DNA of 59,777 nucleotides from a virus. Of this stretch, positions 1-57,722 are shown in pieces. Each line of letters opens with the position of its first letter. Position 1 is the stretch's first letter. The notes beneath the pieces are model-generated. The model was not told the origin of the DNA and made no database searches. It saw only the letters and a list, made by a program, of their open reading frames with translations. The position numbers and the translations under genes are program-made. The stretch is from positions 1-59,777 of IMG/VR virus record IMGVR_UViG_3300044825_002288; one strand, 5' to 3'.

Positions 1-59
1 GGGAGTCATCCACGGCGGTCATTAAGGCTACTGTCAAAACTGCTTTAACGATGGAGTAA
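1..59 (+). CDS. C-terminal fragment of the 85-residue conserved phage protein
   Basis: The first 59 bases encode the last 18 codons of the protein whose complete copy lies at 56289-56546; the sequence is identical and ends at the same TAA. The fragment is cut by the window edge and is not a decayed gene. It places position 1 directly upstream of the adhesin locus in a circular map. Confidence 0.8.
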   Translation, partial: ESSTAVIKATVKTALTME

Positions 60-62
60 ATT

Positions 63-1217
63 ATGGCAGCAACTATTAACGGCGACGGCTTAATATCCCT
101 AGACGGTACACCATCAACTCAGGGTCGGGTGCGACTTGCTGAGGATACCGATAACGGGACTAACTATGTTGAGCTACAGGCGGCAACTAGTATTGCTTCT
201 AGTTTGACCTTTACTTTGCCTAACGCAGACGGCACTAGCGGTCAGGTATTACAGACCAATGGTTCAGGAGTACTGAGTTTTGCTACAGCCGCGTCAGCTA
301 ATTTCCAAGAGTTCACATCCTCTGGTACATGGACTAAGCCTTCAGGCGCAACATTTGTAATGGTTGAGGCGTGGGGTGCTGGTGGCGGTGGTGGTAGTGG
401 ATATAGGGGCGATGGATTAGGAATCCGTGGCGGCGGCGGTGGTGGTGGCGGCGGTGCTTTTACTCAAAGATTTTTTAAAGCCTCTGATCTTGGTGCAACA
501 GAAACCGTAACTATTGGCGCTGGTGGAACTGGAGGAACCGCTTCCACAGTAAATTGCAGCGCTGGTTGTGCGGCAACCGCTGGCGGTGATACAACTTTTG
601 GAAGTTGGCTAACTGCATTTGGTGGTGGTCGGGGTGGTGCTGGAACGGCTGGGGCAAATTCAGGAGGAGGTGGTGGTGGTGTATTAACTGCTGCTACAAC
701 TGCTAATGGAGGAGATCCATTTTCAAGACAGTGCGGCGCTACCACGGTTCAAGGCCAGTTTGGAGGCGGACTTGGACAAGCCGCAAGTCTTGGCAGACCG
801 TCAGGATGGGGTGGTGGTGGAGGCGGCTCTAATGGCGGTACTGGATCACCACAAGTGGGAGGATCTTCGTTTCAAGGCGGTCCCGGAGGCGGTTCAGGAG
901 GCGGACTAAACGCAGCTGGATGTGCTAGAGCAGGTTCTTCTGGAGGTGGAATTACTACAGCAGGCGGTAACGGAGCCGCTGGTGGTGCAGCCGCAGTTAA
1001 TGCTACTGCTAATGGGTCTAATGGAACCGCAGGTTCTGGAAGACAAGGTGCAGGAGGCGGTGGTTCTGGAGGGAATACTTCCGGCACAGGCGGAACCGGA
1101 GGAGCTGGGGGTCAGCCCGCAGGCGGTGGCGGTGGAGGTGGTGGCTCAACTAATGGTTCTAACTCCGGTGCTGGTGGAGCAGGTGGTGCAGGTCTTGTCC
1201 GTGTTTATACATGGTAG
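63..1217 (+). CDS. Glycine-rich tail-tip adhesin, position 1, W-type head (384 aa)
   Basis: Probable receptor-binding protein. Residues 1-80 form a short anchor with the fibre motif EDTDNGTNYV and a TSGQVLQTNGSG segment. From about residue 84 a conserved entry sequence ([17 protein letters not shown]) leads into a long glycine-rich head with runs of up to eight or nine Gly, ending in the invariant tail [10 protein letters not shown]. This architecture matches phage glycine-rich adhesin domains; the structural precedent is the polyglycine-II adhesin gp38 of Salmonella phage S16. The ATG is 3 nt after the preceding stop. The downstream partner overlaps the end region. The head is called W-type for GTWTKPSG and FKASDLGAT, shared with 58086-59252. 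Binding target unknown. Confidence 0.75.
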   Translation: MAATINGDGLISLDGTPSTQGRVRLAEDTDNGTNYVELQAATSIASSLTFTLPNADGTSGQVLQTNGSGVLSFATAASANFQEFTSSGTWTKPSGATFVMVEAWGAGGGGGSGYRGDGLGIRGGGGGGGGGAFTQRFFKASDLGATETVTIGAGGTGGTASTVNCSAGCAATAGGDTTFGSWLTAFGGGRGGAGTAGANSGGGGGGVLTAATTANGGDPFSRQCGATTVQGQFGGGLGQAASLGRPSGWGGGGGGSNGGTGSPQVGGSSFQGGPGGGSGGGLNAAGCARAGSSGGGITTAGGNGAAGGAAAVNATANGSNGTAGSGRQGAGGGGSGGNTSGTGGTGGAGGQPAGGGGGGGGSTNGSNSGAGGAGGAGLVRVYTW

Positions 1218-1225
1218 GTGATCAA

Positions 1226-1465
1226 ATGAGATACGCAATTATTGAAAACGGAGTTGTGATCAATGTGGCCGAGGCAGACGCAGAGTTTGCCGCGCAACAG
1301 GGTTGGGTTGAGTGTCCAACCGCAGGCCCGGGATGGACTTATGCAAATGGAGTGTTTACAGCACCTCCTCCCGCTCCGATCCCAGAGCCTCCTCATGCCC
1401 CTACAAAAGAGCAGCTCATGGCTGAACTTGCAGCACTAACAGCAAAAATCCAAGCATTGGAGTAA
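1226..1465 (+). CDS. Small adhesin partner, short form (79 aa)
   Basis: Starts MRYAIIENGVV, closely matching the start of the 119-residue partner at 2768, so I choose the ATG at 1226 (preceded by an AGGTGA-like site) rather than the ATG at 1211 inside the adhesin gene. This N-terminus is typical of small tail-fibre assembly or tip proteins. The middle is Pro-rich (APPPAPIPEPP) and the C-terminus is a short predicted coiled coil (KEQLMAELAALTAKIQALE). It lacks the tail-assembly-chaperone-like domain of the 119-residue form. It always follows the W-type head in this window (also at 59261-59500), suggesting a cognate chaperone or tip subunit. Confidence 0.65.
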   Translation: MRYAIIENGVVINVAEADAEFAAQQGWVECPTAGPGWTYANGVFTAPPPAPIPEPPHAPTKEQLMAELAALTAKIQALE

Positions 1466-1468
1466 GAC

Positions 1469-2758
1469 ATGGCATCAATTATTAACGCATCATCGACCGG
1501 CTCTGGCGGTTTAATTAGCACTGCTGATGCCTCTGGTCAGTTAGAGCTTCAGGCAAACGGATCGACCAAACTAACGGTGACATCCTCTGGGGTGAGCATT
1601 ACCGGAGGTATTGCATCGCCTTTGGCCGTAACCGGAAACTCAACGGCTGGTGCTGAGATTCGATTACCGGAAGACACCGACAACGGCTCTAATTATGTGG
1701 CCCTGAAAGCAGCAGATAGCATTGCCAGTAATGTGACCTTCACCCTGCCAGCAGCCGATGGTACGAGCGGCCAAGTGCTTCAGACCAACGGATCTGGAAC
1801 GCTGAGTTTTGCTACACCGGCAGGTGCTAACTTCCAAGAATTTACATCCTCTGGAACTTATACCAAGCCCTCTGGCGCAACCTTTGTGCTTGTAGAGGCA
1901 TGGGCAGCGGGTGGTGGCGGAGGATCTGGTCAAAGATTTGCCGGAGGCGGAAATAGGTTTGGTGGAGCTGGTGGTGGTGGCGGTGCGTATGTTCAACGAT
2001 TATTTAAGGCTGCTTGTGTAGGAGCAACCGTAACCGTAACGATTGGCGCAGGCGGAGCAGGGGGAGCAGCACAAACAGTAAATACTTCAAATGGAAACAA
2101 TGGAGCTGCTGGCGGTAATACAACTTTTGGTTCGTTATTAACTGCTTATGGTGCTGGCGGTGGGGTTGGAGGACAAAGTAATACAGCCGGAGGTCACGGC
2201 GGCGGCGCATTAGCTAGTGGTGCTTGTGGTGGTCATCCGCGAGGAACCACAGGAGCTGTGTCATGTTCATGTGTTTGGGGTAATTTTGGTGGTGCGCTTG
2301 GTACTACTGTCACTGGTGGATCTAAAGCCGGTGGTTGGGGTGGTGCAAGCGGCGGGAGAACCACTATCGGTAATCCAGGAAATGCTGGTGGAGCAGCATT
2401 CCAAGGCGGCCCAGGCGGTGGTGCTGGTGGCGGCATAACTTGTGCTGATGCAAAACGAGCTGGCGGTGCTGGTGGAGGTAGTGTTTCAACATTATGTTGT
2501 GCGCGAGGCGGTGGTGGAGCCGGTGGTGCTGCTGCAGTTAATTCCTCAGGAAACGGTTCTGCTGGAACCGCAGGCTCTGGACGCCAAGGCGGTGGTGGCG
2601 GTGGATCAGGTGGTGAAGACAGCGGCACAGGCGGAACGGGTGGCGCAGGTGGTCAACCAGCCGGAGGTGGTGGTGGTGGTGGCGCTTCGACTAACGGATC
2701 AAATTCAGGCGCAGGTGGTGCCGGAGGCGCTGGTTTAGTTCGCGTCTACACTTGGTAA
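1469..2758 (+). CDS. Glycine-rich tail-tip adhesin, position 2, Y-type head (429 aa)
   Basis: Same architecture as the protein at 63-1217 but with a different, longer anchor: MASIINASSTGSGGL, a LELQANG segment, an extra ITGGIASPLAVTG stretch, then EDTDNGSNYV and TSGQVLQTNGSG. The head begins with [17 protein letters not shown] and contains FKAACVGAT, the Y-type hallmarks shared with 56550-57713. The Gly-rich core differs strongly from that relative, yet the final 48 nt and the partner gene downstream are almost identical. Probable host-recognition protein; receptor unknown. Confidence 0.75.
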   Translation: MASIINASSTGSGGLISTADASGQLELQANGSTKLTVTSSGVSITGGIASPLAVTGNSTAGAEIRLPEDTDNGSNYVALKAADSIASNVTFTLPAADGTSGQVLQTNGSGTLSFATPAGANFQEFTSSGTYTKPSGATFVLVEAWAAGGGGGSGQRFAGGGNRFGGAGGGGGAYVQRLFKAACVGATVTVTIGAGGAGGAAQTVNTSNGNNGAAGGNTTFGSLLTAYGAGGGVGGQSNTAGGHGGGALASGACGGHPRGTTGAVSCSCVWGNFGGALGTTVTGGSKAGGWGGASGGRTTIGNPGNAGGAAFQGGPGGGAGGGITCADAKRAGGAGGGSVSTLCCARGGGGAGGAAAVNSSGNGSAGTAGSGRQGGGGGGSGGEDSGTGGTGGAGGQPAGGGGGGGASTNGSNSGAGGAGGAGLVRVYTW

Positions 2759-2767
2759 GGAATAGAC

Positions 2768-3127
2768 ATGAGATACGCAATCATTAAAGACGGCGTTGTT
2801 GAAAACATCGTAGAAGCCACGCCTGAAGTAGCAAGTGAAAACGGATGGGTTCAATGCCCTGAACACGATGATGAGCAAAACGCCATCAGTCCAAGATTCT
2901 TGTTTTCCAACAATAAATTTACCAAGCCTCCGAGAAACATAGAGGCTGAGTGGAACGCTGTCCGCGCCCAACGAAATGCTTTGTTAAGCCAGTCGGACTG
3001 GACGCAGGCATCTGATGTTCCGCAGGCAACAAAGGATAAATGGGCGGTGTATCGGCAAGCTTTGAGAAATATTCCTCAAACATTTTCCGACCCAAAAGAT
3101 GTGGTTTGGCCTACTAAACCGGAGTAA
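2768..3127 (+). CDS. Adhesin partner with tail-assembly-chaperone-like domain (119 aa)
   Basis: N-terminus MRYAIIKDGVVENIVEA resembles the short partner at 1226. Residues 65-119 (RAQRNALLSQSDWTQ, WAVYRQALRNIPQ, VVWPTKPE) match the pattern of the phage tail assembly chaperone family (Phage_tail_APC). The gene is 9 nt after the Y-type adhesin and 3 nt before the 87-residue gene. The second copy at 57723-58082 differs at only a few residues. Likely role: folding or trimerisation of the adjacent adhesin, or a component of the fibre tip; both are inferences. Confidence 0.7.
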   Translation: MRYAIIKDGVVENIVEATPEVASENGWVQCPEHDDEQNAISPRFLFSNNKFTKPPRNIEAEWNAVRAQRNALLSQSDWTQASDVPQATKDKWAVYRQALRNIPQTFSDPKDVVWPTKPE

Positions 3128-3130
3128 ATC

Positions 3131-3394
3131 ATGGCTAAAGACTTTCCTGATCTGACAGGCGATGGCAAGGTAACCCATGCTGATGTTCTGAAGGGCCGTG
3201 GCGTATTTAAAAAGGGCGGAAGCACGGACAAGTGGATTCAAAAGGCAATTTCTAAACCGGGTGCCTTAAAGAAACAATTGGGCGTTCCTGCCGACAAAAA
3301 GATTCCTGCCAAGACCCTAAATAAGGCTGCTAAGGCTCCGGGTAAGTTAGGTCAGCGGGCTAGACTCGCCAAGACACTGCGGGGTTTCGATTGA
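3131..3394 (+). CDS. Conserved basic phage protein (87 aa)
   Basis: Small Lys-rich protein starting MAKDFPDLTGDGKVTHADVL, an EF-hand or dockerin-like Asp pattern (DLTGDGKVTHADVL), followed by FKKGGSTDKW and a basic C-terminus with IPAKTLNKAAK and RARLAKTLRGFD. Similar short proteins recur in aquatic phage genomes, in my recollection; function unknown. A second version lies at 59504-59767 with about 20 base differences, mostly silent. It also contains one instance of the KKGG motif found across this virion's proteins. Confidence 0.7.
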   Translation: MAKDFPDLTGDGKVTHADVLKGRGVFKKGGSTDKWIQKAISKPGALKKQLGVPADKKIPAKTLNKAAKAPGKLGQRARLAKTLRGFD

Positions 3395-3661
3395 ATGGAA
3401 TGGCAAACCGTCATAAACATCGGCGGGGGTTCCCTCTTAGCCGCTCTAGGATGGTTTGCTAGAGAAATTTGGGACGCCGTGAAAGAGCTCCGCAGAGATA
3501 TGCACCGTATTGAACGAGATCTTCCCGACATCTATGCCAAAAAAGATGAGATGAGGGAGACCTTTAAAGAGGTGCGTCAGGATATGAATCAGGGATTCAA
3601 CAAAATTGAGTCCATGATTGGACAACTATTTGACAGGCTAAACAACAAAGCAGATCGGTAA
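3395..3661 (+). CDS. Small membrane-anchored coiled-coil protein (88 aa)
   Basis: Residues about 5-25 (INIGGGSLLAALGWFAREI) form an N-terminal hydrophobic segment, followed by a charged amphipathic helix (ELRRDMHRIERD) and further heptad-like sequence to the end. The start codon touches the stop of the preceding gene (TGAATG). The position just upstream of other membrane proteins, a holin and an endolysin suggests a lysis role, perhaps as an antiholin or spanin-like protein, but no diagnostic lipobox or motif is present. Confidence 0.65.
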   Translation: MEWQTVINIGGGSLLAALGWFAREIWDAVKELRRDMHRIERDLPDIYAKKDEMRETFKEVRQDMNQGFNKIESMIGQLFDRLNNKADR

Positions 3662-3738
3662 TGGGGTTGTGGACTTTTGCCTTTTTGGGTGTGTTGGTAA
3701 TTGTGCTTAGTTTTTCACTTGGAATATGGAGTTGGTGA
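3661..3738 (+). CDS. Possible 25-residue single-TM microprotein
   Basis: A tiny frame beginning MGLWTFAFLGVLVIVLSF and ending GIWSW. It is almost entirely one hydrophobic helix. Its ATG overlaps the previous stop (TAATG) and its TGA overlaps the next start (TGATG), exactly the junction style of the neighbouring genes, which argues for real translation. It sits inside the lysis cluster. It could be a small holin-like or regulator peptide; it may also be chance. Confidence 0.45.
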   Translation: MGLWTFAFLGVLVIVLSFSLGIWSW

Positions 3739-4148
3739 TGTTTGCAGACAAAGAGCTAAAACGAGCCAAAATCGACATAAAGGCAGAGTTAAATAGGCTT
3801 AATGCCCAACAAACCGCCAAAGAAGTCGCAGGAAAGTCAATTGGCCGATTCGGCCTTTTTTACATCACTCTGATCGTAATTATTGGCGTGGCGGCTAGCC
3901 TTCAGTTGGAAGAGGGCAAGATGGCCGCCGTAATGGGACTGCTGGGCGCCTCGCTTACAGCCCTGATCTCCATGATGAACGGGATTGCCGGGGCTACCCC
4001 AAAGCAAGAAAAACCCGAGTTTGAGATTATGAAGCAACTTATTGAGCATCTTGATCGGATGGCTGATCGTGACCCAATGACAGTCGATGTGGACGGAGAA
4101 AAGGTTACCGTCCGTAAAGGCGATAACGAAATTAAAACGGTGAGGTAA
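3738..4148 (+). CDS. Two-TM membrane protein of the lysis cluster (136 aa)
   Basis: An N-terminal charged helix (ADKELKRAKIDIKAELNRL) is followed by two hydrophobic segments: FGLFYITLIVIIGVAASL around residues 38-56 and MAAVMGLLGASLTALISMM around 62-81. The C-terminal 45 residues are charged. The ATG at 3738 overlaps the preceding TGA. A topology with two helices and a cytoplasmic tail is compatible with a holin or antiholin. No named family recognised. Confidence 0.6.
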   Translation: MFADKELKRAKIDIKAELNRLNAQQTAKEVAGKSIGRFGLFYITLIVIIGVAASLQLEEGKMAAVMGLLGASLTALISMMNGIAGATPKQEKPEFEIMKQLIEHLDRMADRDPMTVDVDGEKVTVRKGDNEIKTVR

Positions 4149-4150
4149 TT

Positions 4151-4561
4151 ATGTTTCCTATAGCCGCTTTACTTGATGTTGGAATGAAAGTGCTGGATAA
4201 GGTCATGCCTGATCCGGCGGCCAAGGCTCAAGCCCAACTTGCCTTGATGGAAGCTAGTCAGAAGGGTGAGCTTGCCCAGCTTCAGGCTGATGTGAATGAG
4301 CAGATGGAGTTAACCAAGCGCCTTGAGGCCGACATGGCCTCGGATTCTTGGTTATCCAAAAACATCCGGCCAATGACATTGATATTCATTTTGATTGCTT
4401 ATTCTTTTTTTGCCGTTGGATCGGGAGTTAATTTTCAGGTCAATGAAAAATATGTGGAATTACTTGGTCAGTGGGGAATGTTGATTATGTCCTTTTATTT
4501 CGGCGGCAGAACGCTTGAAAAAATTATGGACATGAAATCAAAAAAGGAAGACAAGAAGTGA
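4151..4561 (+). CDS. Holin of the GTA/3-TM family (136 aa)
   Basis: The signature region DSWLSKNIRPMTLIFILIAY, followed by a second membrane segment (WGMLIMSFYFGGRTLEKIM), matches the GTA_holin_3TM family pattern. The N-terminal half is an amphipathic helix rich in Ala, Gln and Glu. Holins of this family permeabilise the inner membrane so that the endolysin reaches the cell wall. The gene overlaps the M15 peptidase start by 4 nt, the classic holin-endolysin arrangement. Confidence 0.8.
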   Translation: MFPIAALLDVGMKVLDKVMPDPAAKAQAQLALMEASQKGELAQLQADVNEQMELTKRLEADMASDSWLSKNIRPMTLIFILIAYSFFAVGSGVNFQVNEKYVELLGQWGMLIMSFYFGGRTLEKIMDMKSKKEDKK

Positions 4562-5007
4562 ACCCGCAAGACAAACTATCGGAGAACTTTACTTATGAAG
4601 AACTTACTCGCTCTGAAACAGCGGATCGTAACGGCTGGGAAAACATTCCTAACGAAGCTGAAATCGAAAATCTCCGCCGTCTGGCCGCGCTCCTCCAAGA
4701 AGTCAAAAAAGCGGTAGGCGGCAAACCGGTCATGATCAATTCGGCTTTTCGGTCGAAAAAGGTCAATGACGCCGTAGGATCGAAAGACACCTCCCAGCAT
4801 CGTTTGGGATGTGCTGCAGACATCCGAGTGCCGGGTATGCGGCCTCGGGAGGTGGTGGAGGCTTGTATCGCCGCCAAAGTGCCTTTTGACCAAATCATCC
4901 TTGAGTTTGATTCTTGGACTCATATCTCGGTGCCGAATACACCTCAGATGCAGGCTAGAGGCCAAAAGCTGATAATTGACAAACAGGGAACTAGGGCATT
5001 TTCATGA
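4558..5007 (+). CDS. Endolysin, M15-family peptidase (149 aa)
   Basis: Predicted zinc peptidase that cuts peptidoglycan cross-links. Zinc and catalytic motifs are visible: SQHRLGCAAD at residues 79-88 (H81 and D88) and WTH at 120-122 (H122), the pattern of the Peptidase_M15_3 group. The N-terminus (LSENFTYEELTRSETA) is the usual start of these endolysins. There is no signal peptide, so release needs the holin just upstream. The GTG start overlaps the holin stop (GTGA). Confidence 0.88.
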   Translation: MNPQDKLSENFTYEELTRSETADRNGWENIPNEAEIENLRRLAALLQEVKKAVGGKPVMINSAFRSKKVNDAVGSKDTSQHRLGCAADIRVPGMRPREVVEACIAAKVPFDQIILEFDSWTHISVPNTPQMQARGQKLIIDKQGTRAFS

Positions 5008-5411
5008 GCACGGCCGTTAAATCTGACCCCTCTAAATGGAAGCGCATCGTCGCCTCGGTGAAAGCCTCGGGCAAGGGCGGCGCTCCGGGTCAGTGGTCGG
5101 CTCGGAAGGCTCAATTGGCCACCCAAAAGTACAAGTCCTCAGGCGGGGGCTATAAAGGGCCAAAAAAGGCCGATAACAGCCTCTCCCAGTGGAGCAAGCA
5201 GGAATGGGGTACCAAGTCTGGCAAGCCTTCTACGGTAGGTCCAAAAGCCACTGGGGAGCGGTATCTGCCCAAAAAGGCCATCCAAGGGCTTTCTTCGGCT
5301 GAATACGCCGCCACAACCCGCGCCAAGCGGGAAGGGAAGGCTGCCGGCAAACAGTTTGTCTCTCAGCCAAAAAGTATTGCTGAGAAAACCGCCAAATATA
5401 GGAGTTGGTGA
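5004..5411 (+). CDS. Conserved basic phage protein (135 aa)
   Basis: Lys/Ser/Gly-rich protein (WSARKAQLATQKYKSSGGGYKG, split motifs SLSQWSKQEWGTKSGK, GERYLPKKAIQGL, GKQFVSQPK). The pattern matches a domain of unknown function that I recall as DUF5872 from phage and bacterial genomes; the name is not verified. The high charge suggests a nucleic-acid-associated or virion-internal protein. It overlaps the endolysin by 4 nt and the adaptor by 1 nt. Confidence 0.65.
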   Translation: MSTAVKSDPSKWKRIVASVKASGKGGAPGQWSARKAQLATQKYKSSGGGYKGPKKADNSLSQWSKQEWGTKSGKPSTVGPKATGERYLPKKAIQGLSSAEYAATTRAKREGKAAGKQFVSQPKSIAEKTAKYRSW

Positions 5412-6046
5412 TGACAGTCGCCGCCGTAATGACCTATGACTCTTTGGTCAATGATATTTCGACTTATCTTGAGCGGACGGACACGGCCACCCTAGAGAAG
5501 ATCCCGACTTTCATTATGTTGGCCGAACAGGTTATTGCCTCAGAAATCAAGTTTTTGGGCAATCTGACGGTCCAGCAAAGCACTATGGTAGCCACCCAGC
5601 CAGTCATCGATAAGCCCGCTAGATGGCACAAAACGGTATCTATGAATGTGGTTGTGGCGGGGGAGCGCAGACCGGTCCTGCTTCGGAAGTACGAGTACCT
5701 CCGGGAGTACTGGCCGGACCCCACCCAAGTCGATGTGCCTAAGTTTTACTGCGACTATGACTATACCCATTGGTTAGTCGCCCCAAGCCCTGCCTCAAAT
5801 TACACCTTTGAGGTGCTTTATTACGAGCGGATTCAGCCCTTGGATTCCTCAAACCAAACCAATTGGTTCACGATTTATGCCCCCCAGGCCCTGCTCTACG
5901 GATCACTCCTGCAGGCCATGCCGTTTTTGAAAAACGACGATCGTATGCCTATGTGGCAGGCTCAGTACGACAAGATTATCAATACCTTGAAGACTGAAGA
6001 CCTCACCCGAATCGCCGATCGTCAATCAACAGTATTGGATTCATGA
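5411..6046 (+). CDS. Head-tail adaptor protein (211 aa)
   Basis: Resembles the SU10-type/podoviral adaptor family that sits under the portal. Typical features: an N-terminal helical region (VNDISTYLERTDTATLEKIPTFIM in pieces: EKIPTFIMLAEQVI), a central beta region with RPVLLRKYEYLREYWPD, and YAPQALLYGSLLQAMPFLKND near the C-terminus. The ATG at 5411 is chosen over upstream TTG/GTG codons because it overlaps the stop of the previous gene and is preceded by AGGAG at a spacing of 6. Confidence 0.7.
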   Translation: MTVAAVMTYDSLVNDISTYLERTDTATLEKIPTFIMLAEQVIASEIKFLGNLTVQQSTMVATQPVIDKPARWHKTVSMNVVVAGERRPVLLRKYEYLREYWPDPTQVDVPKFYCDYDYTHWLVAPSPASNYTFEVLYYERIQPLDSSNQTNWFTIYAPQALLYGSLLQAMPFLKNDDRMPMWQAQYDKIINTLKTEDLTRIADRQSTVLDS

Positions 6047-19424: not shown

Positions 19425-20198
19425 TTACTTGTGGTCATTTTTCAACTGCCAAAACCGCAAAAGTTTGGTGAACATCATCCATCCTTTGTGTAATTCATCG
19501 TCAGACCATTCTTTAACCACTACAAGGCCCGGAACATTACGAGAAACAAACACATTTGCACATCGACCAAAAAACATATTTAACCCCATACGATATGCCG
19601 CCAACTGCATAAGATGCTCGTCATATCCCTCAACTTTCTCAGGATCGGTAAATTCCTTGGTTTTGATATCCAAGATAATCCCGACTGAAGAGTCATCGAT
19701 GCTTTTGGCATACATGTCGCACTTGCCACCGAAGCCCATGTCATGAGCGAAGGCTTGCTCGCAGACCCAGTTTTGCGCTCCGAACTCTTTTGCTAAAACC
19801 TTTTCTACTCCCGCCACATGCTCAGTATGGGAGTAGTCTTTTTGGCCCTCGTAATACTGTTGGATTGCTGCGTGGATCTTGGTTCCCTCATCAGCTGCCG
19901 CACGACCCTGCTCTTTTGAGTCTTCCATAATCCGCTCAAGGTAAGACTCTTCTGTCTCCCCCTCCCGGCGTGGAAGGGTCAATGAAGCAAATAAGACCTG
20001 CTGCATCTTCCACTTTTCAAGCCCAGGCTTTGCCGCCACCCCAAGGATGGTCGTGACCGATGGAACTAAATTGTGCTTACGGGCGTCCCGCAGGGTGGTA
20101 TTGCGGATCTTTCCGTTTGCTCCCTCAACCTGATACATGGGCTCACCCGTGCGGGTGTACCAATGCCCTGCCTCAGCCGTGTATGTCGATACCTTCAT
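19425..20198 (-). CDS. PD-(D/E)XK exonuclease, RecB/Cas4-like (257 aa)
   Basis: Motifs of the RecB-like nuclease fold are visible: H109 in GTKIHA, D161 in GGKCD, D177 and K179 in LDIKTK, and QLAAYR at 198-203 (QxxxY motif). Phage enzymes of this type resect double-stranded DNA ends for recombination or replication, with an ssDNA-binding or annealing partner; the DUF669 protein upstream could serve here. The start has a strong GGAGGT site and overlaps the 81-residue gene by 26 nt. Confidence 0.8.
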   Translation of the reverse strand: MKVSTYTAEAGHWYTRTGEPMYQVEGANGKIRNTTLRDARKHNLVPSVTTILGVAAKPGLEKWKMQQVLFASLTLPRREGETEESYLERIMEDSKEQGRAAADEGTKIHAAIQQYYEGQKDYSHTEHVAGVEKVLAKEFGAQNWVCEQAFAHDMGFGGKCDMYAKSIDDSSVGIILDIKTKEFTDPEKVEGYDEHLMQLAAYRMGLNMFFGRCANVFVSRNVPGLVVVKEWSDDELHKGWMMFTKLLRFWQLKNDHK

Positions 20199-23426: not shown

Positions 23427-23649
23427 AGGCGGCTTGGATGAAAAGCTCAAAAATTGGAAAGAAGGCCAAGGTGACGATGAAAGCAGACACCGACACCTCG
23501 TCCGCTGGGTCATTCGGATGCGTATCGAAGACCGAGACAAAGCACACAAGTGGCTTCAGGGTTGGAACGAAAAACATCCCGGCTCTATTTTGGAATCCGA
23601 TGTCATATCCCAATGGCAAAAAGGTAATAAAGGCGAGGGTTGGAAATGA
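23407..23649 (+). CDS. Hypothetical protein (80 aa)
   Basis: Basic and Trp-rich (LKNWKEGQGDDESRHRHLVRW, split; KAHKWLQGWNEKHPG). The start is ATG 23407 or TTG 23404, inside the helicase end; the stop overlaps the RusA start (ATGA). The phase-consistent overlaps on both sides support this frame over the competing frame at 23438-23653. Function unknown. Confidence 0.55.
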   Translation: MKKAISEGGLDEKLKNWKEGQGDDESRHRHLVRWVIRMRIEDRDKAHKWLQGWNEKHPGSILESDVISQWQKGNKGEGWK

Positions 23650-23993
23650 TTGAGTTGACGCTGCCTTGGCCACCATCGGTTAATCACTATTGGAGGTCAT
23701 ACCGCGGCATGGTGGTAATCAGCGAAGCCGGCCGCAAGTATCGGAAAGCTGTGGGAGAGCAGGTTTTCTTGCAGACCCGCGGGAAGTCAACGGTCGGAAA
23801 GTTAAAGGTGGTCATCGAAGCCTGGCGTCCGGATAACCGTAGGCGGGATCTCGATAACTTATTGAAAGCTGTCTTGGACTCAATGGGCCATGCGGGGCTT
23901 TACATTGATGACTCACTAATTGTGGATCTGAGAATTTATTGGGCGCCAGACATAGCTGGCATGTTGAAAATCAAGATTGAGGAATTGAATTGA
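23646..23993 (+). CDS. rusA: RusA-family Holliday junction resolvase (115 aa)
   Basis: The pattern LPWPPSVNHYWR at the N-terminus, RRRDLDNLLKAVLDSM, and YIDDSLI with the conserved Asp cluster is characteristic of RusA. The enzyme cuts four-way DNA junctions made during recombination or replication before packaging. The length is typical. The start ATG overlaps the preceding stop; the next gene starts in the TTGA overlap. Confidence 0.88.
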   Translation: MIELTLPWPPSVNHYWRSYRGMVVISEAGRKYRKAVGEQVFLQTRGKSTVGKLKVVIEAWRPDNRRRDLDNLLKAVLDSMGHAGLYIDDSLIVDLRIYWAPDIAGMLKIKIEELN

Positions 23994-47493: not shown

Positions 47494-47834
47494 TGCCTAG
47501 ATTCCTAGACACCCGCGCCCTAACATCTGTAGCCATCGGTGTATGTGATCGATGCAAGATGAAACGCGCCTATGTCAATCTAGGCCCCGATCCTAACTTC
47601 CCAGGATTGCGCGTATGCGATCAAGGATGCAAGGATCAATTTGACCCCTACAGGCTGCCGGCTCGGAAGACTGAGCGAATTAACCTTCGCTTTCCCCGCC
47701 CAGATGTAAGTGTCGCCAATGTCCAACCGGCCTTGCAGACCGGGGGTTATGGCCAGTTCCTGATATCGACACAGGACAACCAAAATATCCCGGAAAACGA
47801 TGGCAACCTCGATGTAATTAGCCCGAGCCCATAA
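47493..47834 (+). CDS. Zinc-ribbon-like virion protein (113 aa)
   Basis: Two Cys pairs, CDRC at residues 18-21 and the CDQGC near residues 42-46, form a likely zinc ribbon. The rest is polar (FDPYRLPARKTERINLRFPR). The pattern occurs in aquatic podoviruses near neck genes. The next gene starts in the TAATG overlap. Structural or assembly role probable. Confidence 0.6.
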   Translation: MPRFLDTRALTSVAIGVCDRCKMKRAYVNLGPDPNFPGLRVCDQGCKDQFDPYRLPARKTERINLRFPRPDVSVANVQPALQTGGYGQFLISTQDNQNIPENDGNLDVISPSP

Positions 47835-50233
47835 TGCCTTCAGCACAAGTCACCATTACCCAATTACCTGCCGCCGGTCCAATTCAAGGGACTGAGGCGG
47901 TACCTATCGTCCAAAACGGTCAGACCGTACAGACCACAACGGGGGCTATTGCCGCCTCCCCGAGTCAGACTCAGACCTTTATTACGGTCAACCAAGAGCC
48001 GAGCCTGATCAATAGTCGGGCCTTGTCTGTCGGATCGGGGTTAAGCCTCACCGATGGCGGAGCTCAATCGACTATGCAGATTGGCCTCGCTGGAGCGGTA
48101 GCGAGCCTTTTCTCCTCTACTTTGGGGCTGCAGTCCAAAACTAACGCCTCAACAATGGTCGGGCGCACGATTACAGGCTCCACAGGGGTCTCGGTTTCTG
48201 ACGGCAATGGCATTGCAGGAAACCCAACGATCGGCCTTACAGGGGCCGTAGGATCGCTTGCAGGGCTTGCCGGAACCGGTGTCCTAGGGATTGTTGGGGG
48301 AAGCAGTGTCACCGCCCTAGAAATTACGGGAACGACTAATGAGATTGATGTAGCCAACGGAACCGGACCCGGAAACCCGACTATTGGGATTTCGGACAAC
48401 CCGCGGATACCAGGCACCGGGGCGATGCTGATCCCTAACGGGACAACCGCTCAACAGATCTATGGCCCGGATGGGCAGATTCGATACAACACTCAGACTC
48501 AGTATTTTGAGGGCTTGATTGGTGGTGCTTGGACTAACGCTTTAGGCTCATCCGGCATCAGTGGATTTTCCGGCTTTAGCGGATTTTCCGGAATTTCAGG
48601 ATTTTCCGGATTCTCAGGCATTTCCGGTTTTTCTGGCTTTTCTGGACTTAGCGGTATATCGAGTACCTTTTACCCATACCGCACTAATACGGGAAGCACC
48701 TCAGGGGACCCCGGATCAGGCAAGCTACTTTGGAATAACGGAACCCAAACAAGCGCAACACAAATCAATGTCAATCACATAACGGACGATGGCGTTGATA
48801 TTGATGTCTTTTTGGCCCTGCTTGCCGAAACTGAAAACTTCATCATTCAGGATCAAGCTAATAGCGGAAACTTCCAAAAGTGGCTGATCAACGGGGCGCC
48901 ATCGAATGCAGGTAATTACTGGACGATTCCTTGTACGCTTGTTGACTCCGGTGGAACTGGAACCTCAGGGTTTGCAGATAACCTTGAAGTCATCCTTGCG
49001 GTCGTAAACGGTATTAGCGGATTCTCTGGCACTTCCGGATTTAGCGGATTCTCGGGCTTTAGCGGAATTTCAGGCTTTAGCGGATTCTCAGGTTTTAGCG
49101 GAGAGAGCGGCTATTCAGGTTTTTCAGGAATTAGCGGATTTTCCGGTGATAGCGGAATCAGTGGATTTTCTGGAATTTCCGGTTTTTCGGGCGAATCAGG
49201 ATTCAGCGGATACTCAGGCAGTGGCGTTTCGGGTTTTAGCGGCGAGTCTGGTTTTTCGGGATTTTCTGGTGAATCAGGTTTTTCGGGAGCTAGCGGATTT
49301 TCCGGCATCAGTGGATTTTCTGGCGATAGCGGAATTAGCGGATTTTCGGGATTTAGCGGAGAGTCTGGATTCTCAGGATTTTCGGGTTATTCGGGGCTTG
49401 ATGGCATAGCTCAAAGCGGCACTTCGGGATTCTCAGGATTTAGTGGCCAATCAGGATTTTCTGGATTTTCAGGAACTAGTGGATTTTCGGGCCAATCGGG
49501 AACTTCAGGATTTTCAGGCGCAGTTGGATCGGCATCAACTTTTTATCCATATCTAGCGAAAACAACATCACAAAGCGGTGATCCAGGTGTTGGATTTTTG
49601 TTGTGGAACAACGCAACTCAATCAAGCGCCACGCAAATCAATGTAAGCCATGAAGATGACGATGGAGTTGATGTTGATATTTTCTTGGCTTTAATTAAGC
49701 AAACTCAACGATTTACAATTCAAAGCAGAACATCGAGTGCTAATTATCAAGTTTGGGAAGTCAACGGAACCCCAAATAATGTAAATCCTGGCTTATCAAA
49801 TAGTTACTGGGAATTCCCGGTCAGTCTTGTAACCTCAACTTACAGCTTTGCAAATAACGATCCAATTATTTTTGCAATTACAGCTGGTCTTAGTGGCTTT
49901 TCCGGAACTTCAGGATTTTCAGGGTTTTCCGGTTTCAGCGGAATCTCAGGGTTTAGTGGAATTAGCGGATTTAGCGGAACTTCAGGTTTTTCGGGAACTT
50001 CGGGGTTTTCAGGTTTTTCCGGCATTAGCGGCTTCTCGGGCTTCAGTGGCACATCGGGATTTTCGGGTGCGCCGCCGACGACAATTTCTGTCGCTACGAC
50101 TTCTACGACGCCGGTCTACCCCGTCCTAGTGGCCGGCACGACCGGAAGCCAAAGTGCCTTGACGGACTCTGACTTGAGCTATAACGCAACAACCAATGCC
50201 TTCTTATCAGGTGTGGTGGGCGGAACCTTCTGA
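47834..50233 (+). CDS. Collagen-like tail fibre with Gly-X-Ser repeats (799 aa)
   Basis: Elongated virion fibre. Residues 1-238: beta-rich fibre base. Then three Gly-X-Ser/Thr tracts (residues about 240-277, 393-564 and 685-745) alternating with two copies of a globular domain of about 115 residues (TFYPYRTNTGSTSGDPGSGK... and TFYPYLAKTTSQSGDPGVGF...). In the triplets X is mostly Phe, Ile or Tyr, sometimes Glu or Asp, and the third position is nearly always Ser or Thr. The end is SGVVGGTF. Ser-rich triplets are potential glycosylation sites, with glycosyltransferases directly downstream. Confidence 0.75.
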   Translation: MPSAQVTITQLPAAGPIQGTEAVPIVQNGQTVQTTTGAIAASPSQTQTFITVNQEPSLINSRALSVGSGLSLTDGGAQSTMQIGLAGAVASLFSSTLGLQSKTNASTMVGRTITGSTGVSVSDGNGIAGNPTIGLTGAVGSLAGLAGTGVLGIVGGSSVTALEITGTTNEIDVANGTGPGNPTIGISDNPRIPGTGAMLIPNGTTAQQIYGPDGQIRYNTQTQYFEGLIGGAWTNALGSSGISGFSGFSGFSGISGFSGFSGISGFSGFSGLSGISSTFYPYRTNTGSTSGDPGSGKLLWNNGTQTSATQINVNHITDDGVDIDVFLALLAETENFIIQDQANSGNFQKWLINGAPSNAGNYWTIPCTLVDSGGTGTSGFADNLEVILAVVNGISGFSGTSGFSGFSGFSGISGFSGFSGFSGESGYSGFSGISGFSGDSGISGFSGISGFSGESGFSGYSGSGVSGFSGESGFSGFSGESGFSGASGFSGISGFSGDSGISGFSGFSGESGFSGFSGYSGLDGIAQSGTSGFSGFSGQSGFSGFSGTSGFSGQSGTSGFSGAVGSASTFYPYLAKTTSQSGDPGVGFLLWNNATQSSATQINVSHEDDDGVDVDIFLALIKQTQRFTIQSRTSSANYQVWEVNGTPNNVNPGLSNSYWEFPVSLVTSTYSFANNDPIIFAITAGLSGFSGTSGFSGFSGFSGISGFSGISGFSGTSGFSGTSGFSGFSGISGFSGFSGTSGFSGAPPTTISVATTSTTPVYPVLVAGTTGSQSALTDSDLSYNATTNAFLSGVVGGTF
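48551..48663 (+). repeat. Collagen-like coding repeat 1
   Basis: Nine-base units coding Gly-Phe-Ser/Gly-Ile-Ser (mainly GGATTTTCC, GGCTTTAGC forms). Synonymous codons vary between units. Confidence 0.85.
49010..49525 (+). repeat. Collagen-like coding repeat 2
   Basis: The longest Gly-X-Ser/Thr tract, with X including Phe, Ile, Tyr, Glu, Asp, Ala and Thr. It is interrupted once near 49388-49425 (YSGLDGIAQSGTSG). Confidence 0.85.
49886..50068 (+). repeat. Collagen-like coding repeat 3
   Basis: Third tract of Gly-X-Ser/Thr triplets, downstream of the second globular domain and just before the C-terminal cap. Confidence 0.85.
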
Positions 50234-51681
50234 TGAAGTATTCAATCGTCATCCCAACCTACAACCACTGTGATGACCTGCTGCGGCCGTGTCTTGAGTC
50301 CGTCTTTAAGCATTCCGTTATGTCCGAGGTGGAGATAATCGTATCGGCTAATGGATGCACGGATAACACCCGCTGGTATTTAGAGTCTCTGAAAAATCAG
50401 TTTGATCGGGTTGGGTTTGGGGATCACTTCAAGGTCTTATGGAGCGATGTCCCCTTGGGGTATCCAGTCGCCAACAATGTGGCCATCCGCCATGCGACAG
50501 CTGACCGGATTGTCCTTCTGAATAACGACTGCATCCTCTTGGACCAAGAGCGCGGAACTTGGCTAAAGATGCTGAATTCCGCCTTTGAAGACGAGAAGTG
50601 CGGGATCTCAGCCGTCTTAAAGGCCCATTCAGAGATTACCGGCCGGGACTTTGCGGTGTTTTTCTGCGTGATGATCGACCGTAAGGTCTTTGAGACCGTT
50701 GGCTTACTGAATCCGGAGTTTGGGGCAGGTGGGTGCGAGGACATTGAGTTTTGCTTAGAGACTGAAAACGCCGGATTTAAGGTGATTCAGTGTGAAAATC
50801 AGGGCTGGAACGGCCAAACCAACACCGGAGCCTTCCCGATTTATCACAAGGGCGAGGGTACGGTTCACGATTCGGTCTTGGTAAAGGATTGGAAGTCCGC
50901 TTTTTTCCAAAACCAGCTTAAATTGGCCGAAAAACATAACCCTGAATGGGCCAAAAACGCCCACAGACAGGCTAAAGACCATCAAATCAGGTCATCCCTT
51001 GCCTGGATGTGCGAAAACGGCCCTGAAGCCAAGGAATTGTTCGATGAGGTGATCGTCGGGAATGTCTATGGAGCCTCTGAAGAGTCCATGCGTGGCCGAG
51101 AGGTCATCGATATCGGGGCTAATATGGGCACCTTTTCAATCTTGGCCGCTAGCCTTGGGGCTAGGAAGGTCATAGCGATTGAGCCGGTGACCCCGACCTT
51201 TGATGTCCTGATTAAAAATGTATGGAAGTCGGGTTCAGATGTCATCAAGCCGCAGAAGGCCGTGGTTTCTGACCGTGCCGGGGAGTATGTGCGGATAGGG
51301 CTACAGCAAAAAACGGGCCATAACAGCCTTTATGGCGTCCAAGAAGACTTTGAAGAGGTCTATTCCGTCACCCTAAATAACCTCTTAGACATGGTCGATG
51401 GCAGCAATGTCTTCCTTAAGATGGACTGCGAGGGTGCTGAGTACGACATCCTGATGAACGCCTCAGAAGAGGACATGGAGCGGATCACCACGATCGCCCT
51501 AGAGGTTCACGGAGATCTGCACCCCAAATATCGGGGCATCGAGGTAATAGAGAAGAAATTAGAGTCCTTCGGGTTTACCCTTAAAGACCGCAAACATATT
51601 GGTGCTTGGGATCTAGGCTCTCAGGGAGAGATGATCAACTACCGAGACTTGGGCAGGACTAACGAGATATGGACAAGATAG
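50233..51681 (+). CDS. GT2 glycosyltransferase fused to FkbM methyltransferase (482 aa)
   Basis: Residues 1-240: GT2-type glycosyltransferase (SIVIPTYNHCDDLLRPCLES, IIVSANGCTDNTRWY, VLLNNDCILLD, GGCEDIEFCLE). Residues about 285-475: FkbM-family SAM methyltransferase (VIDIGANMGTFSILAASLGA, VIAIEP, VTLNNLLD, FLKMDCEGAEYDIL). Together the enzyme could add a sugar and methylate it. The start overlaps the collagen-like fibre stop by 1 nt, so production is tied to that fibre. Acceptor inferred, not shown. Confidence 0.8.
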   Translation: MKYSIVIPTYNHCDDLLRPCLESVFKHSVMSEVEIIVSANGCTDNTRWYLESLKNQFDRVGFGDHFKVLWSDVPLGYPVANNVAIRHATADRIVLLNNDCILLDQERGTWLKMLNSAFEDEKCGISAVLKAHSEITGRDFAVFFCVMIDRKVFETVGLLNPEFGAGGCEDIEFCLETENAGFKVIQCENQGWNGQTNTGAFPIYHKGEGTVHDSVLVKDWKSAFFQNQLKLAEKHNPEWAKNAHRQAKDHQIRSSLAWMCENGPEAKELFDEVIVGNVYGASEESMRGREVIDIGANMGTFSILAASLGARKVIAIEPVTPTFDVLIKNVWKSGSDVIKPQKAVVSDRAGEYVRIGLQQKTGHNSLYGVQEDFEEVYSVTLNNLLDMVDGSNVFLKMDCEGAEYDILMNASEEDMERITTIALEVHGDLHPKYRGIEVIEKKLESFGFTLKDRKHIGAWDLGSQGEMINYRDLGRTNEIWTR

Positions 51682-52637
51682 TTCTCTGCTCAATATCTAC
51701 CCGGGGGCGATATCACACGACCTTGCCTATAGCCCTAATGGCGGTGGCCAATCAGACACGGCCGGTCGATAAGCTGGTCATTTTTGACGATAACGACAGT
51801 CCTGAGGATCTTCGGGAGCATCCTGTTTATAAAAACCTATTCTGCATCTTGAACCAAAAGGGAATTAAGTGGGAATGGCTTTTTGCCGGGAAGAAGGGTC
51901 AGCACCATAATCATCAGATCGCCAACAACATGGGCTATGACTGGGTTTGGAGAGTCGATGATGATGCTATCCCTGAGCCAACTACTTTGGAAGTTCTTGT
52001 TAGCCATATTGCAGATGATGTAGGGGCTATTGGCGGGGCAATTCTTATGCCTGGCCGGCCGTTCGATACATCCAAGTCAACCGGGCTACTAGAGAAGATT
52101 GATTCTGAGGCGAACCTTCAGTGGGCTGAGATTAAGCATTTGACCGAGGTTGATCACCTGCACTGCTCATTTTTATACCGAGCTGGGGTGGTGGACTATA
52201 ACCTCGGACTTTCTCGGGTGGCCCACCGGGAAGAGACTATGTTTACCTATTCTTTAAAGAAGAAGGGTTACAGAGTGCTTGCCGTCCCCGGGGCTACGAC
52301 TTGGCACCTAAAGGCTGAGGGCGGGATTCGGATGGAGAAAAACGCTGAACTTTATGCTCATGATGAGCGGATATTCCAAAACTTCCTAAAGCTCAGAGAC
52401 AACACCGTGGTGGTGCTAAACGGGGGTATGGGCGATCATATTGTTTTCACGCACCTGTTGCCGGAAATTAAGAATCCAGCTGTTTTTGGATGCTATCCCG
52501 AGATTATTCCGGGTAGATCGATTGCTGAGGCGCAACAGATGCTAGGTGATATTGAGCCGTACAGTATTTATAAAAAGATGCACCAATGGGGTTGGAAAGA
52601 TAGTTTGGAGAAGGCTTACCGCAAGATGTACCTATGA
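51669..52637 (+). CDS. GT2-like glycosyltransferase with GT9-type N-domain at its end (322 aa)
   Basis: GT2-like part: KIVLCSISTRGRYHTTLP, VANQTRPVDKLVIFDDND and WRVDDDAIPEP with Asp97-99, then HREETMFTYSLKKKGYR. From about residue 246, NTVVVLNGGMGDHIVFTHLL looks like the start of a GT9 (heptosyltransferase-like) domain. The next gene holds the matching second half. The start overlaps the previous gene by 13 nt. Confidence 0.72.
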   Translation: MDKIVLCSISTRGRYHTTLPIALMAVANQTRPVDKLVIFDDNDSPEDLREHPVYKNLFCILNQKGIKWEWLFAGKKGQHHNHQIANNMGYDWVWRVDDDAIPEPTTLEVLVSHIADDVGAIGGAILMPGRPFDTSKSTGLLEKIDSEANLQWAEIKHLTEVDHLHCSFLYRAGVVDYNLGLSRVAHREETMFTYSLKKKGYRVLAVPGATTWHLKAEGGIRMEKNAELYAHDERIFQNFLKLRDNTVVVLNGGMGDHIVFTHLLPEIKNPAVFGCYPEIIPGRSIAEAQQMLGDIEPYSIYKKMHQWGWKDSLEKAYRKMYL

Positions 52638-53664: not shown

Positions 53665-54285
53665 ATGAGTACGATTGCAGCAGGAACCACATCCGGTAGC
53701 GCGTTAGTTAATACCGGGGATACAACCGGTAATTTGGTGTTTCAGACCAATGGCACGACGACAGCCTTAACGCTGAATACATCGCAAAACGCATCTTTTG
53801 TTGGCACGGTGACGGCAGTTGGCGGCGTTGCGGTTAGCGGGACATCGAGCGGCCCAGCAGATGTAAAAATTTATGAGGATACGGACAATGGCACAAACTA
53901 TGTGTCACTGACCGTTCCGGCTTCTCTTGCATCAAATGTGACCTGCACTTTGCCGTCAACAACATCGACTCTTGGGTACATCAACCTTCCGGCGGTAGGA
54001 ACGAAAACAGGTTCTTACACCCTCGCAGTTGGTGATGTTGGTAAATATGTTCAAGTAGGTTCTGGTGGGTCGATTACTATACCTGATGCAACATTTGCAG
54101 AGGGTGATGCAATATCAATATTTAATAACACCACTGGCAACATTACGATCACCTGCACAATTACAACCGCTTACATCGCTGGAACGGACGCCGATAAAGC
54201 ATCAGTAACTTTAGCCACTCGCGGCGTAGCAACAATTTTATTTATTAGCGGCACTGTTTGCGTAATTACGGGGAATGTGTCGTGA
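53665..54285 (+). CDS. Fibre anchor-like protein (206 aa)
   Basis: Contains VKIYEDTDNGTNYVSLTVPA then SLASNVTCTLPSTTS, the anchor motif shared with the glycine-rich adhesins at both ends of the window, but without their head. The C-terminal half (GKYVQVGSGGSITIPDATFA, GNITITCTITTAYIAGTD) is a module also seen in fibre proteins. It ends in the GTGA overlap with the third adhesin, so it may act as its shaft. Confidence 0.65.
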   Translation: MSTIAAGTTSGSALVNTGDTTGNLVFQTNGTTTALTLNTSQNASFVGTVTAVGGVAVSGTSSGPADVKIYEDTDNGTNYVSLTVPASLASNVTCTLPSTTSTLGYINLPAVGTKTGSYTLAVGDVGKYVQVGSGGSITIPDATFAEGDAISIFNNTTGNITITCTITTAYIAGTDADKASVTLATRGVATILFISGTVCVITGNVS

Positions 54286-55205
54286 GCGGAATTATGCTTT
54301 CATTTGTTGGAGCATCTGGAAAACTACCTCTAGATGTTGAGGCTCTAATTGTGGCTGGTGGCGGTGGCGGTGGGTGGGCAGGCGGTGGCGGTGGTGGAGG
54401 TGGATACAGAACAAGTAGTGCTACTTTATTAGCAAATACTAACTACACGGTTACAGTTGGAGCTGGCGGGGGAGGTGGATTTTGCGTTGGATTTGGCCCT
54501 AGAGGAGCTAGTGGATCAAATTCAGTTTTTAATACGACAACTTCAGCAGGCGGTGGAGGTGGTGGCGGTAGAGGGTATCCAGGTTACCCTTGTTGCATTC
54601 GCGCTGGAGCAAATGGTGGCTCCGGCGGAGGAGCAGCAACAAGTAATTGTTCGTGGTCTGGCGGAACAGGAAACACTCCAACGCAAAGTCCATCGCAAGG
54701 AAATAATGGTGGCAATAATGCAACAACTTGTAGAACTGGAGCCGGCGGAGGCGGTGGGGCAGGCGGTGCTGGATCTAATGGAGGAACATTTTCCGGAGGA
54801 AATGGTGGATCTGGATCTACATCAAATATATCTGGTTCTTGCGTAACTTATGCCGGTGGCGGTGGCGGCGGTGTTATTGCTTTTCCAACAGTGTCAACAA
54901 CAACATCTGGAACAGGAGGTTCCGGCGGAGGAGGCAATGGAGCGGCAACAAGCGGTTCTGGTAATGGCTCTAATGGCACAGCAAATCGTGGGGGTGGCGC
55001 AGGCGGTGGAATTCAATGGAACAATTCAGGGTCTCCAGTTAATAGCAATGGAGGAAACGGGGGATCAGGAGTTGTAATTCTTAAATATCCAAGCGTTTAT
55101 TCGATTTCAAATCCTGGTGGAGGTCTTACTTTTTCAACTACAACATCAGGTGCAAATAAAATTAGTACATTTACTGCCGGCACTGGCAATGTTTCGTGGA
55201 GTTAG
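54282..55205 (+). CDS. Third glycine-rich adhesin (307 aa)
   Basis: GTG start at 54282 overlaps the preceding stop. The protein begins SGIMLSFVGASGKLPLDVEA, then enters Gly runs of up to eight with TVTVGAGGGGG, as in glycine-rich adhesin domains. It has no EFTSSGT entry and lacks the VRVYTW end; it ends with TFTAGTGNVSWS. It is thus a separate lineage of adhesin. The downstream partner is a 128-residue protein distinct from those of the other two types. Confidence 0.7.
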   Translation: MSGIMLSFVGASGKLPLDVEALIVAGGGGGGWAGGGGGGGGYRTSSATLLANTNYTVTVGAGGGGGFCVGFGPRGASGSNSVFNTTTSAGGGGGGGRGYPGYPCCIRAGANGGSGGGAATSNCSWSGGTGNTPTQSPSQGNNGGNNATTCRTGAGGGGGAGGAGSNGGTFSGGNGGSGSTSNISGSCVTYAGGGGGGVIAFPTVSTTTSGTGGSGGGGNGAATSGSGNGSNGTANRGGGAGGGIQWNNSGSPVNSNGGNGGSGVVILKYPSVYSISNPGGGLTFSTTTSGANKISTFTAGTGNVSWS

Positions 55206-55596: not shown

Positions 55597-56292
55597 ATGG
55601 GCAAGAAAAAAGTATGTAAGGCCGCCGAACAGGTAAAAGAAGTTGTGCAAAACACACAACTAAATGTTGCCTTTCACTTTCCTTGCCCAATCTACCTGAT
55701 TGAGCGTCCAGACTTCTTAGAAGCCGTCAATAAGGTTTCAGAAGAATCTTTGGAGAAACAGCGCAAAGAACACAAGATTGACGAAATCTATCCTGTTTTA
55801 ATGAGCGAAAACTTTTACGCTGATGAGCGGGTTCAACCTTTTGCCCAATTCGTAGCCGCTACCGCATGGAATATCCTCAACGAGCAGGGATATGCCATGC
55901 AGGACAAGGTGACCTCCTACATGGAGATGTGGACTCAGGAACACCATAAACAGTCCTCTATGGAGCAGCATACACACGGGTACGGATCTCAGATCGTAGG
56001 CTTTTATTTCCTTGAGGTTCCTGAGAACTCCTCTCGGGTGGTCTTTTATGACCCACGGGCAGGAAAGGTTCAGATCGATCTACCTGAGACCGATGCCTCT
56101 CAGGCTACCGTGGCAAGCAAGATGATCAACTTTGAGCCAAAACCGGGGCTGATGATTTTTACTAACGCTTGGCTAGCCCACGCATTTACCCGCCACGCCG
56201 CCGATAAACCGATCAAGTTTGTGCATTTCAATCTGTCGGTTCAGATGGCCCAGCCGGTTCAGGCGCCTATGCCCGCAGCGGAGATCGTATGA
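55597..56292 (+). CDS. 2OG-Fe(II) oxygenase-like protein (231 aa)
   Basis: Pattern of the phage 2OG-Fe(II) oxygenase group: EQHTHGYGSQIVGFYFLEVP (His125, His127), VVFYDPRAG, PGLMIFTNAWLAHAF (His195) and KPIKFVHFNL. These enzymes hydroxylate proteins, nucleic acids or small molecules. The usual Arg that binds 2-oxoglutarate is not clear here (Lys204/Lys207 in its place). ATG 55597 preferred over the upstream TTG. Possible acceptors: fibre proteins. Confidence 0.65.
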   Translation: MGKKKVCKAAEQVKEVVQNTQLNVAFHFPCPIYLIERPDFLEAVNKVSEESLEKQRKEHKIDEIYPVLMSENFYADERVQPFAQFVAATAWNILNEQGYAMQDKVTSYMEMWTQEHHKQSSMEQHTHGYGSQIVGFYFLEVPENSSRVVFYDPRAGKVQIDLPETDASQATVASKMINFEPKPGLMIFTNAWLAHAFTRHAADKPIKFVHFNLSVQMAQPVQAPMPAAEIV

Positions 56293-56546
56293 ACAAGTAC
56301 TCAATCCGCTTTAACAAAACCCGTGGTCAGCCCGGTCGAGGCACGATGGATCATGTTTGGCGTGTGTTTGAAAACGGCAAAGAATACTTATTTAAGAACT
56401 TAGATATTTCAGTTCCCATCAAAAGTGAAAAAGATGAGAACGGTGTGGATTACAACATTTGTTGTACGGGGTACTTAGAGATTGACCGGGAGTCATCCAC
56501 GGCGGTCATTAAGGCTACTGTCAAAACTGCTTTAACGATGGAGTAA
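56289..56546 (+). CDS. Conserved aquatic-phage protein (85 aa)
   Basis: Basic N-terminus (YSIRFNKTRGQPGRGTMDHV), then WRVFENGKEYLFKNLDI and YNICCTGYLEIDRESST. This compact protein is familiar from other aquatic phages, mostly unassigned. It overlaps the oxygenase-like gene by 4 nt. Its C-terminal 18 codons reappear at window positions 1-59. Confidence 0.65.
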   Translation: MNKYSIRFNKTRGQPGRGTMDHVWRVFENGKEYLFKNLDISVPIKSEKDENGVDYNICCTGYLEIDRESSTAVIKATVKTALTME

Positions 56547-56549
56547 ATT

Positions 56550-57713: not shown

Positions 57714-57722
57714 GGAATAGAC

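Follow-up and report, generated by a model that had tools for sequence, protein, structure and literature searches.

Whether a short DNA sequence shared by two otherwise unlike fibre genes marks the place at which phages exchange receptor-binding parts is the question raised by the fibre locus of an uncultured aquatic phage. The window analysed here is the whole IMG/VR record IMGVR_UViG_3300044825_002288 (59,777 nt), which is classed as linear and whose contig is not closed. The initial annotation noted that 44 nucleotides at 294-337 recur at 58305-58348, and this holds exactly: the 44-mer (TCAGCTAATTTCCAAGAGTTCACATCCTCTGGTACATGGACTAA) is present in two in-frame copies, preceded by different anchors and followed by diverging heads. 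The annotation further took it for a natural homologous crossover site at which any head could be placed behind any anchor. We think that the two copies of the 44-mer probably go back to a recent common ancestor and mark the joint between anchor and glycine-rich head, a joint that is one of several in this locus.

The two versions of the fibre locus

The first 3.4 kb (1-3404) and the last 3.3 kb (56488-59777) of the window contain the same fibre locus in two versions, termed allele 1 and allele 2, with the following features. Fibre genes are named in the text by their first position.

1-88, + strand: upstream flank of allele 1, identical to 56488-56575
63-293, +: anchor 1, N-terminal module, phrog_863-like, codons 1-77; homology to other proteins ends at residue 74-80; AF2 pLDDT below 50 over residues 1-78
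294-337, +: entry, first copy of the 44-mer, predicted first beta-hairpin of the head (sequence and model)
338-1217, +: head A body (PF21722 Gly_rich_2), nearest to the heads of genes 1469 and 56550
1206-1292, +: 87-nt identity tract, equal to 59241-59327, head end and partner start (3' joint, type A)
1223-1465, +: partner A, small chaperone-like gene of type A (open reading frame listed from 1211)
1469-1822, +: anchor 2
1823-1866, +: head B entry (Y type), homologous position, 75% identical to the 44-mer
1867-2758, +: head B body
1877-1907, +: 31-nt identity tract, equal to 56835-56865, directly after the entry (B/B')
2711-2851, +: 141-nt identity tract, equal to 57666-57806, head end and partner start (3' joint, type B)
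2768-3127, +: partner B, Phage_tail_APC (PF16778)
3131-3394, +: conserved closing gene of 87 aa, allele 1
56289-56546, +: conserved opening gene of 85 aa
56550-56780, +: anchor 1' (allele 2)
56781-56824, +: head B' entry, 64% identical to the 44-mer
56825-57713, +: head B' body
57723-58082, +: partner B', 96% identical to 2768-3127
58086-58304, +: anchor 4 (allele 2, second gene)
58305-58348, +: entry, second copy of the 44-mer
58349-59252, +: head A' body, sister of the head of contig L090
59258-59500, +: partner A', 96% identical to partner A in nucleotides
59504-59767, +: closing gene of 87 aa, allele 2

The four fibre genes score 28.5, 36.8, 34.4 and 43 bits against PF21722 (Gly_rich_2, curated cut-off 24.3), and partner B scores 73.8 bits against the tail assembly chaperone family PF16778 (cut-off 26.6). 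Partner A matched no Pfam family and PHROG entries only weakly. The partner types follow each other as A, B in allele 1 and as B, A in allele 2.

In our reading, the contig probably represents a single permuted genome, about 56 kb long, together with a second allele of the fibre locus. This reading follows from the identities between the ends, including 91% between 3118-3404 and 59491-59777, from coexisting contigs and from two relatives. In metagenome 3300047557, contig L247, which begins at 544, agrees with window 544-5976 at 100%, while contig L089 matches the window core at 99-100% and ends at 57137, so that both versions of the locus coexist there. A third contig, L091, has the same upstream genes at 90% and the same anchor, but a different head; its homology ends at 56767, about 14 nt short of the 44-mer position. 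In the circular phage MW202545.1 (57,457 bp, Manatee Spring), which is syntenic, a single fibre locus occupies this place, and a relative of 68,272 bp (L189/L197) shows the same doubled ends as the window. The two genes that share the 44-mer thus appear to be alleles from one locus, and not genes at separate loci in the same genome.

We also considered a true terminal repeat and a tandem duplication. Both were rejected, as the copies differ by 4-15% in the flanking gene, the partners and the anchor, and as there is only one fibre locus in the syntenic circular relative; with one contig to judge from, a tandem copy is improbable rather than strictly excluded. The record is classed as linear, yet it appears to be a complete permuted genome with two fibre alleles at its ends. 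Since the window and the 68,272-bp relative both end in alleles, completeness tests based on end repeats miss such genomes. Contig ends that resemble a duplicated fibre cluster can be two alleles of one locus, which bears on estimates of completeness, on gene counts and on supposed "duplications" in viral metagenomes.

Several neighbouring genes deserve mention in their own right. The two short genes on either side of the locus are highly abundant in IMG/VR, with at least 582 (87-aa gene) and at least 315 (85-aa gene) matching stretches; neither had a Pfam match over the cut-off, and only the 87-aa gene matched PHROG, weakly and with entries of unknown function. In two contigs (L009 and L010; IMGVR_UViG_3300046009_004608 and 3300046007_001227) the 87-aa closing gene is 97% identical, but the fibre genes are long repeats like NVIDYVTIASTGNATDFGDL, and the head class at this locus is thus replaced entirely. 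Upstream of the fibre genes, 47834-50233 encodes a collagen-like, 799-aa protein in which GFSGFSGISGFSG forms long repeats. Inside the fibre region, 50233-52637 contains two putative glycosyltransferase-like genes, one of them with a methyltransferase-like C-terminal half, as judged by eye from the translations. Another glycine-rich protein (54258-55205; PF21722, phrog_2295) lacks the entry motif and adjoins a small partner-like gene.

DNA identity and protein fold at the head entry

The 44-mer occurs exactly twice in the window and its match cannot be extended, as the adjoining base differs at both ends. Both copies are in frame 1 and comprise codons 78-92 of gene 63 (63-1217) and codons 74-88 of gene 58086 (58086-59252). 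The anchors upstream (63-290 and 58086-58301) share 66% of their nucleotides and 41% of their amino acids, and the heads downstream (338-1217 and 58349-59252) share 69% of their nucleotides and are no closer than other head pairs of the window.

The simplest account would be ordinary protein conservation of the N-terminus of the Gly_rich_2 head, with a DNA match by luck. The entry peptide is indeed kept in many phages, and PF21722 covers the entry. However, other pairs in the window are only 64-84% identical over an entry of the same length, and the excess identity lies at synonymous sites. This was determined by comparing codons only at positions with agreeing amino acids, which removes protein conservation. 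Between genes 63 and 58086, 13 of 14 such codons are identical at the entry versus 4 of 13 over the next 15 codons, although all 15 residues there are identical; the best patch along the whole gene spans codons -6 to +7 (13/13, p about 0.001 by a scan statistic with permutation). The family mean of synonymous identity at the entry is 0.41, as low as in the flanks (0.44 and 0.39). In terms of sequence, the 44-nt identity exceeds protein conservation, and we regard luck on top of conservation as a very improbable explanation.

Neither the 30-nt nor the 24-nt core of the 44-mer occurs exactly elsewhere in IMG/VR, and a degenerate pattern of the entry peptide matched 31 contigs and 2 genome contigs. 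Searches of cultured phages by distant blastn with the fibre locus and by tblastn with head A' gave no match. As judged from these searches, the 44-mer DNA is private to this population, whereas across phages the entry is kept as protein with saturated synonymous sites. The initial annotation proposed to look for the same 44-mer in other aquatic phage contigs; as even its 24-nt core is absent elsewhere in IMG/VR, it is not a general recombination sequence. Placing any head behind any anchor is too strong a claim for a DNA sequence that distant phages share as protein only.

What the entry encodes was addressed with an AlphaFold2 model of gene 63, in which residues 1-78 have no confident structure and the mean pLDDT is only 57. 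The predicted fold starts at residue 79-80, with strands at 80-84, 88-91 and 98-104 and a final strand at 378-383. A fold search with this model of modest confidence returned Bxb1 gp33 (Z 21.9), then the Pam3 fibre (Z about 15; 7ypx with Foldseek E 2e-4 and VIA Z 15.2; 7yfw with Z 14.8 over model residues 78-384) and then ALK/LTK TNF-like/glycine-rich domains. The T4-like gp38 (S16, 6F45) was not among the fold matches listed, an absence that proves nothing. By the model and by analogy to these structures, the 44-mer would encode the hairpin that opens a TNF-like base and the C-terminal LVRVYTW would form its last strand, with the variable loops between the two. In the model, the exchange joint coincides with the predicted fold boundary.

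Exchange tracts and conflicting trees

Among 2412 gene pairs, 11 shared patches reached p<=0.001, and 7 of these 11 span the entry start and end at codons +1 to +10. When patches were made gene-disjoint, so that each gene was used once, the entry was covered by 4 of 8 against an expectation of 0.55 (p=0.001). A 3SEQ-like triplet test of 17 genes, with 715 internal edges, placed 25% of the edges within codons -15 to +9, where 6% would be expected if they were uniform (24 of about 385 codons), an approximately fourfold enrichment (15-34% on resampling genes by a bootstrap over children). As the triplet edges share sequences, they are not independent and are taken as supportive only. Even spread of the breakpoints over the gene was thus not found. 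The same site stands out in more distant proteins: of 134 proteins with the anchor, 39 lose their homology to it at residue 74-80, most often at residue 78, where the 44-mer has its first codon, and a near-identical entry peptide stands behind about 20 unlike anchors.

The remaining 75% of the breakpoints fall outside the joint, and several relatives have few edges at it. A second rise of the triplet edges is found at codons +36 to +54. Gene 1469 and L091 share a patch at the anchor end (codons -29 to +1, 65 nt identical), gene 56550 and L091 share one at codons +11 to +24 (p=0.026), and genes 1469 and 56550 share one at codons 290 to 303. From these sequences the joint at the entry is real but one of several, as tract ends also occur at the anchor end, just past the entry, at codons +36 to +54 and at the transition from the head C-terminus to the partner. 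The proposal that the entry is the exchange point of the heads is therefore sound in that a modular joint exists there, with about 20 anchors, conflicting trees and enriched edges, but other sites of the locus take part in exchange as well. Gene conversion within an allele, from one fibre gene to the other, was also considered; the two genes share no significant patch.

A second fibre family, in contigs L193, L196, L206 and L220, has an anchor of 22 aa (MLSNQQTSFNYKVSEP); here anchor and entry are near-identical and the heads switch at codons +5 to +10, so that these contigs repeat the pattern of the window.

As an assembly artefact, anchors and heads that do not belong together could have been linked at a repeat of 44 nt. 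One contig does carry two alleles of one locus at its ends, and only the window contig spans the 44-mer sites, given where L247 starts and L089 ends. However, the same patch edges are found between contigs of other samples (L193/L196/L206/L220, L345/L346, L091/L247), and L247 confirms the linkage of head A with partner A at 100%, so that we hold a misjoin to be quite unlikely. As it presupposes the 44-mer in two contexts, the shared tract stands either way.

Trees of the modules were compared by AU tests. The anchor tree rejects a sister relation of genes 63 and 58086 (p 1.6e-4) and likewise one of 58086 and L090 (3.7e-8). In the tree of head bodies, 63 and 58086 are again rejected (1.6e-5), and 58086 and L090 are supported sisters (98/89). 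The partner tree, in turn, supports 63 and 58086 as sisters (96/94) and rejects the body clade of 58086, L090 and L250 (0.0015). These conflicts indicate that anchor, head body and partner have different histories, and the congruence that would have spoken against exchange was not found. Gene 63 appears as a mosaic of anchor 1, an A-type entry, a B-like body and an A-type end with its partner; its body groups with B and B' by identity, with weak tree support. The view of the heads A/A' and B/B' as swapped cassettes was dismissed, as the bodies pair otherwise (A is nearest to B and B', and A' to L090), and only the partner and the head end pair in this manner.

The partner travels with the last strand and C-terminus of the head and not with the head body, as the tracts of 87 and 141 nt cross the head end into the partner, and as partners are 96% identical versus about 70% for the bodies.

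Routes of exchange and comparison with known phages

The results show recombination between relatives in this locus that is concentrated at the predicted fold borders. Co-circulating relatives of this phage would recombine in the fibre locus, and where the break falls at the end of the anchor or within the first head hairpin, frame and fold would be kept, so that such exchanges could survive. Repeated exchange on either side of the joint may then have left two genes, in two alleles, that have in common only the 44 nt and the tract from head C-terminus to partner. The crossing over is probably homologous in nature, and it may result in a change in host binding. An identical tract between unlike flanks takes two exchanges to arise, and it consequently marks the joint and not which DNA had paired. 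The enrichment of breakpoints at the joint speaks for the idea of a natural crossover site, while the 44 nt themselves are a putative pairing site at most. Two genes of the window are candidates for a role in recombination, and no RecT was found in the window.

19425-20198, - strand: exonuclease (phrog_298), possible recombination gene
23640-23993, +: RusA Holliday-junction resolvase (PF05866)

Alternatively, the parts could be joined at random without homology, followed by selection for in-frame, foldable products. The hotspot would then appear because other breaks kill the protein, and the 44 nt would be a footprint of inheritance and not a pairing site. In favor of this, the entry DNA is mostly divergent between phages (the synonymous mean given above), yet the joint recurs behind its many anchors, and it coincides with a fold boundary. 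On the other hand, the tract ends in this population lie inside conserved, alignable codons and without indels, as homologous exchange leaves them, and identity tracts of 31-141 nt are found repeatedly in this locus. We consider random joining unlikely, although less so than the other alternatives. A site-specific recombinase or a diversity-generating retroelement might switch the heads in a programmed way, which could be suspected from the reversed order of partner types between the alleles and from the repeated sequence at the joint. The window contains none of the families PF00078, PF00239 and PF00589, that is, no resolvase, integrase or reverse transcriptase family, there are no inverted repeats, and the heads differ by about 30% and are not rearranged copies, which makes programmed switching a negligible option next to recombination between relatives.

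Exchange of adhesin parts at conserved motifs is already well known in phages, and here it is measured in an uncultured population. In the distal fibre locus of T-even phages, as Tetart, Desplats and Krisch reportedly described in 1998, recombination between conserved motifs swaps the specificity of the gp38 adhesin. As in gp38, conserved glycine-rich motifs lie between hypervariable segments of an adhesin, and the conserved motifs are the exchange joints between relatives. The T-even gp38 is a separate protein bound to gp37, whereas here anchor and head form one polypeptide, the joint is the predicted first hairpin of a TNF-like base, and the population is uncultured, with a genome of about 56 kb known from metagenomes only.

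The nearest solved relative of the head, both by sequence (profile E 1.4e-11) and by fold, is the tail wing brush protein gp33 of mycobacteriophage Bxb1 (PDB 9d93), which has a different anchor and belongs to a different phage group. The fibre gp24 of cyanophage Pam3, which is served by the chaperone gp25 (PMC9608196; PDB 7ypx/7yfw), resembles the head in its TNF-like and glycine-rich fold, but its anchor is alpha-helical and the sequence identity is about 30%; the accessible part of that report describes no exchange joint. Distant Alteromonas phages have a host-recognition module of fibre and chaperone in common (PMC10579305), and as there, fibre and cognate chaperone are exchanged between phages; unlike that module, in which the pair moves as a unit, the partner here separates together with the head C-terminus from the head body. 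Shuffling of protein fragments is ongoing in phages, with clear recent mosaicism in receptor-binding proteins (PMC10684548), a survey whose accessible part resolves no joint to codons.

It is conceivable, though we would rather doubt it in this full form, that the locus has two fixed joints, both in the conserved base of the head fold (its first hairpin and its last strand), by which anchor, receptor-binding tip and chaperone are reassorted nearly independently of one another. The locus would then be a combinatorial library, with order and tips differing between coexisting genomes of one aquatic population. With the DNA identity separated from protein conservation, an exchange site of receptor-binding parts can be resolved to a few codons in an uncultured phage population.
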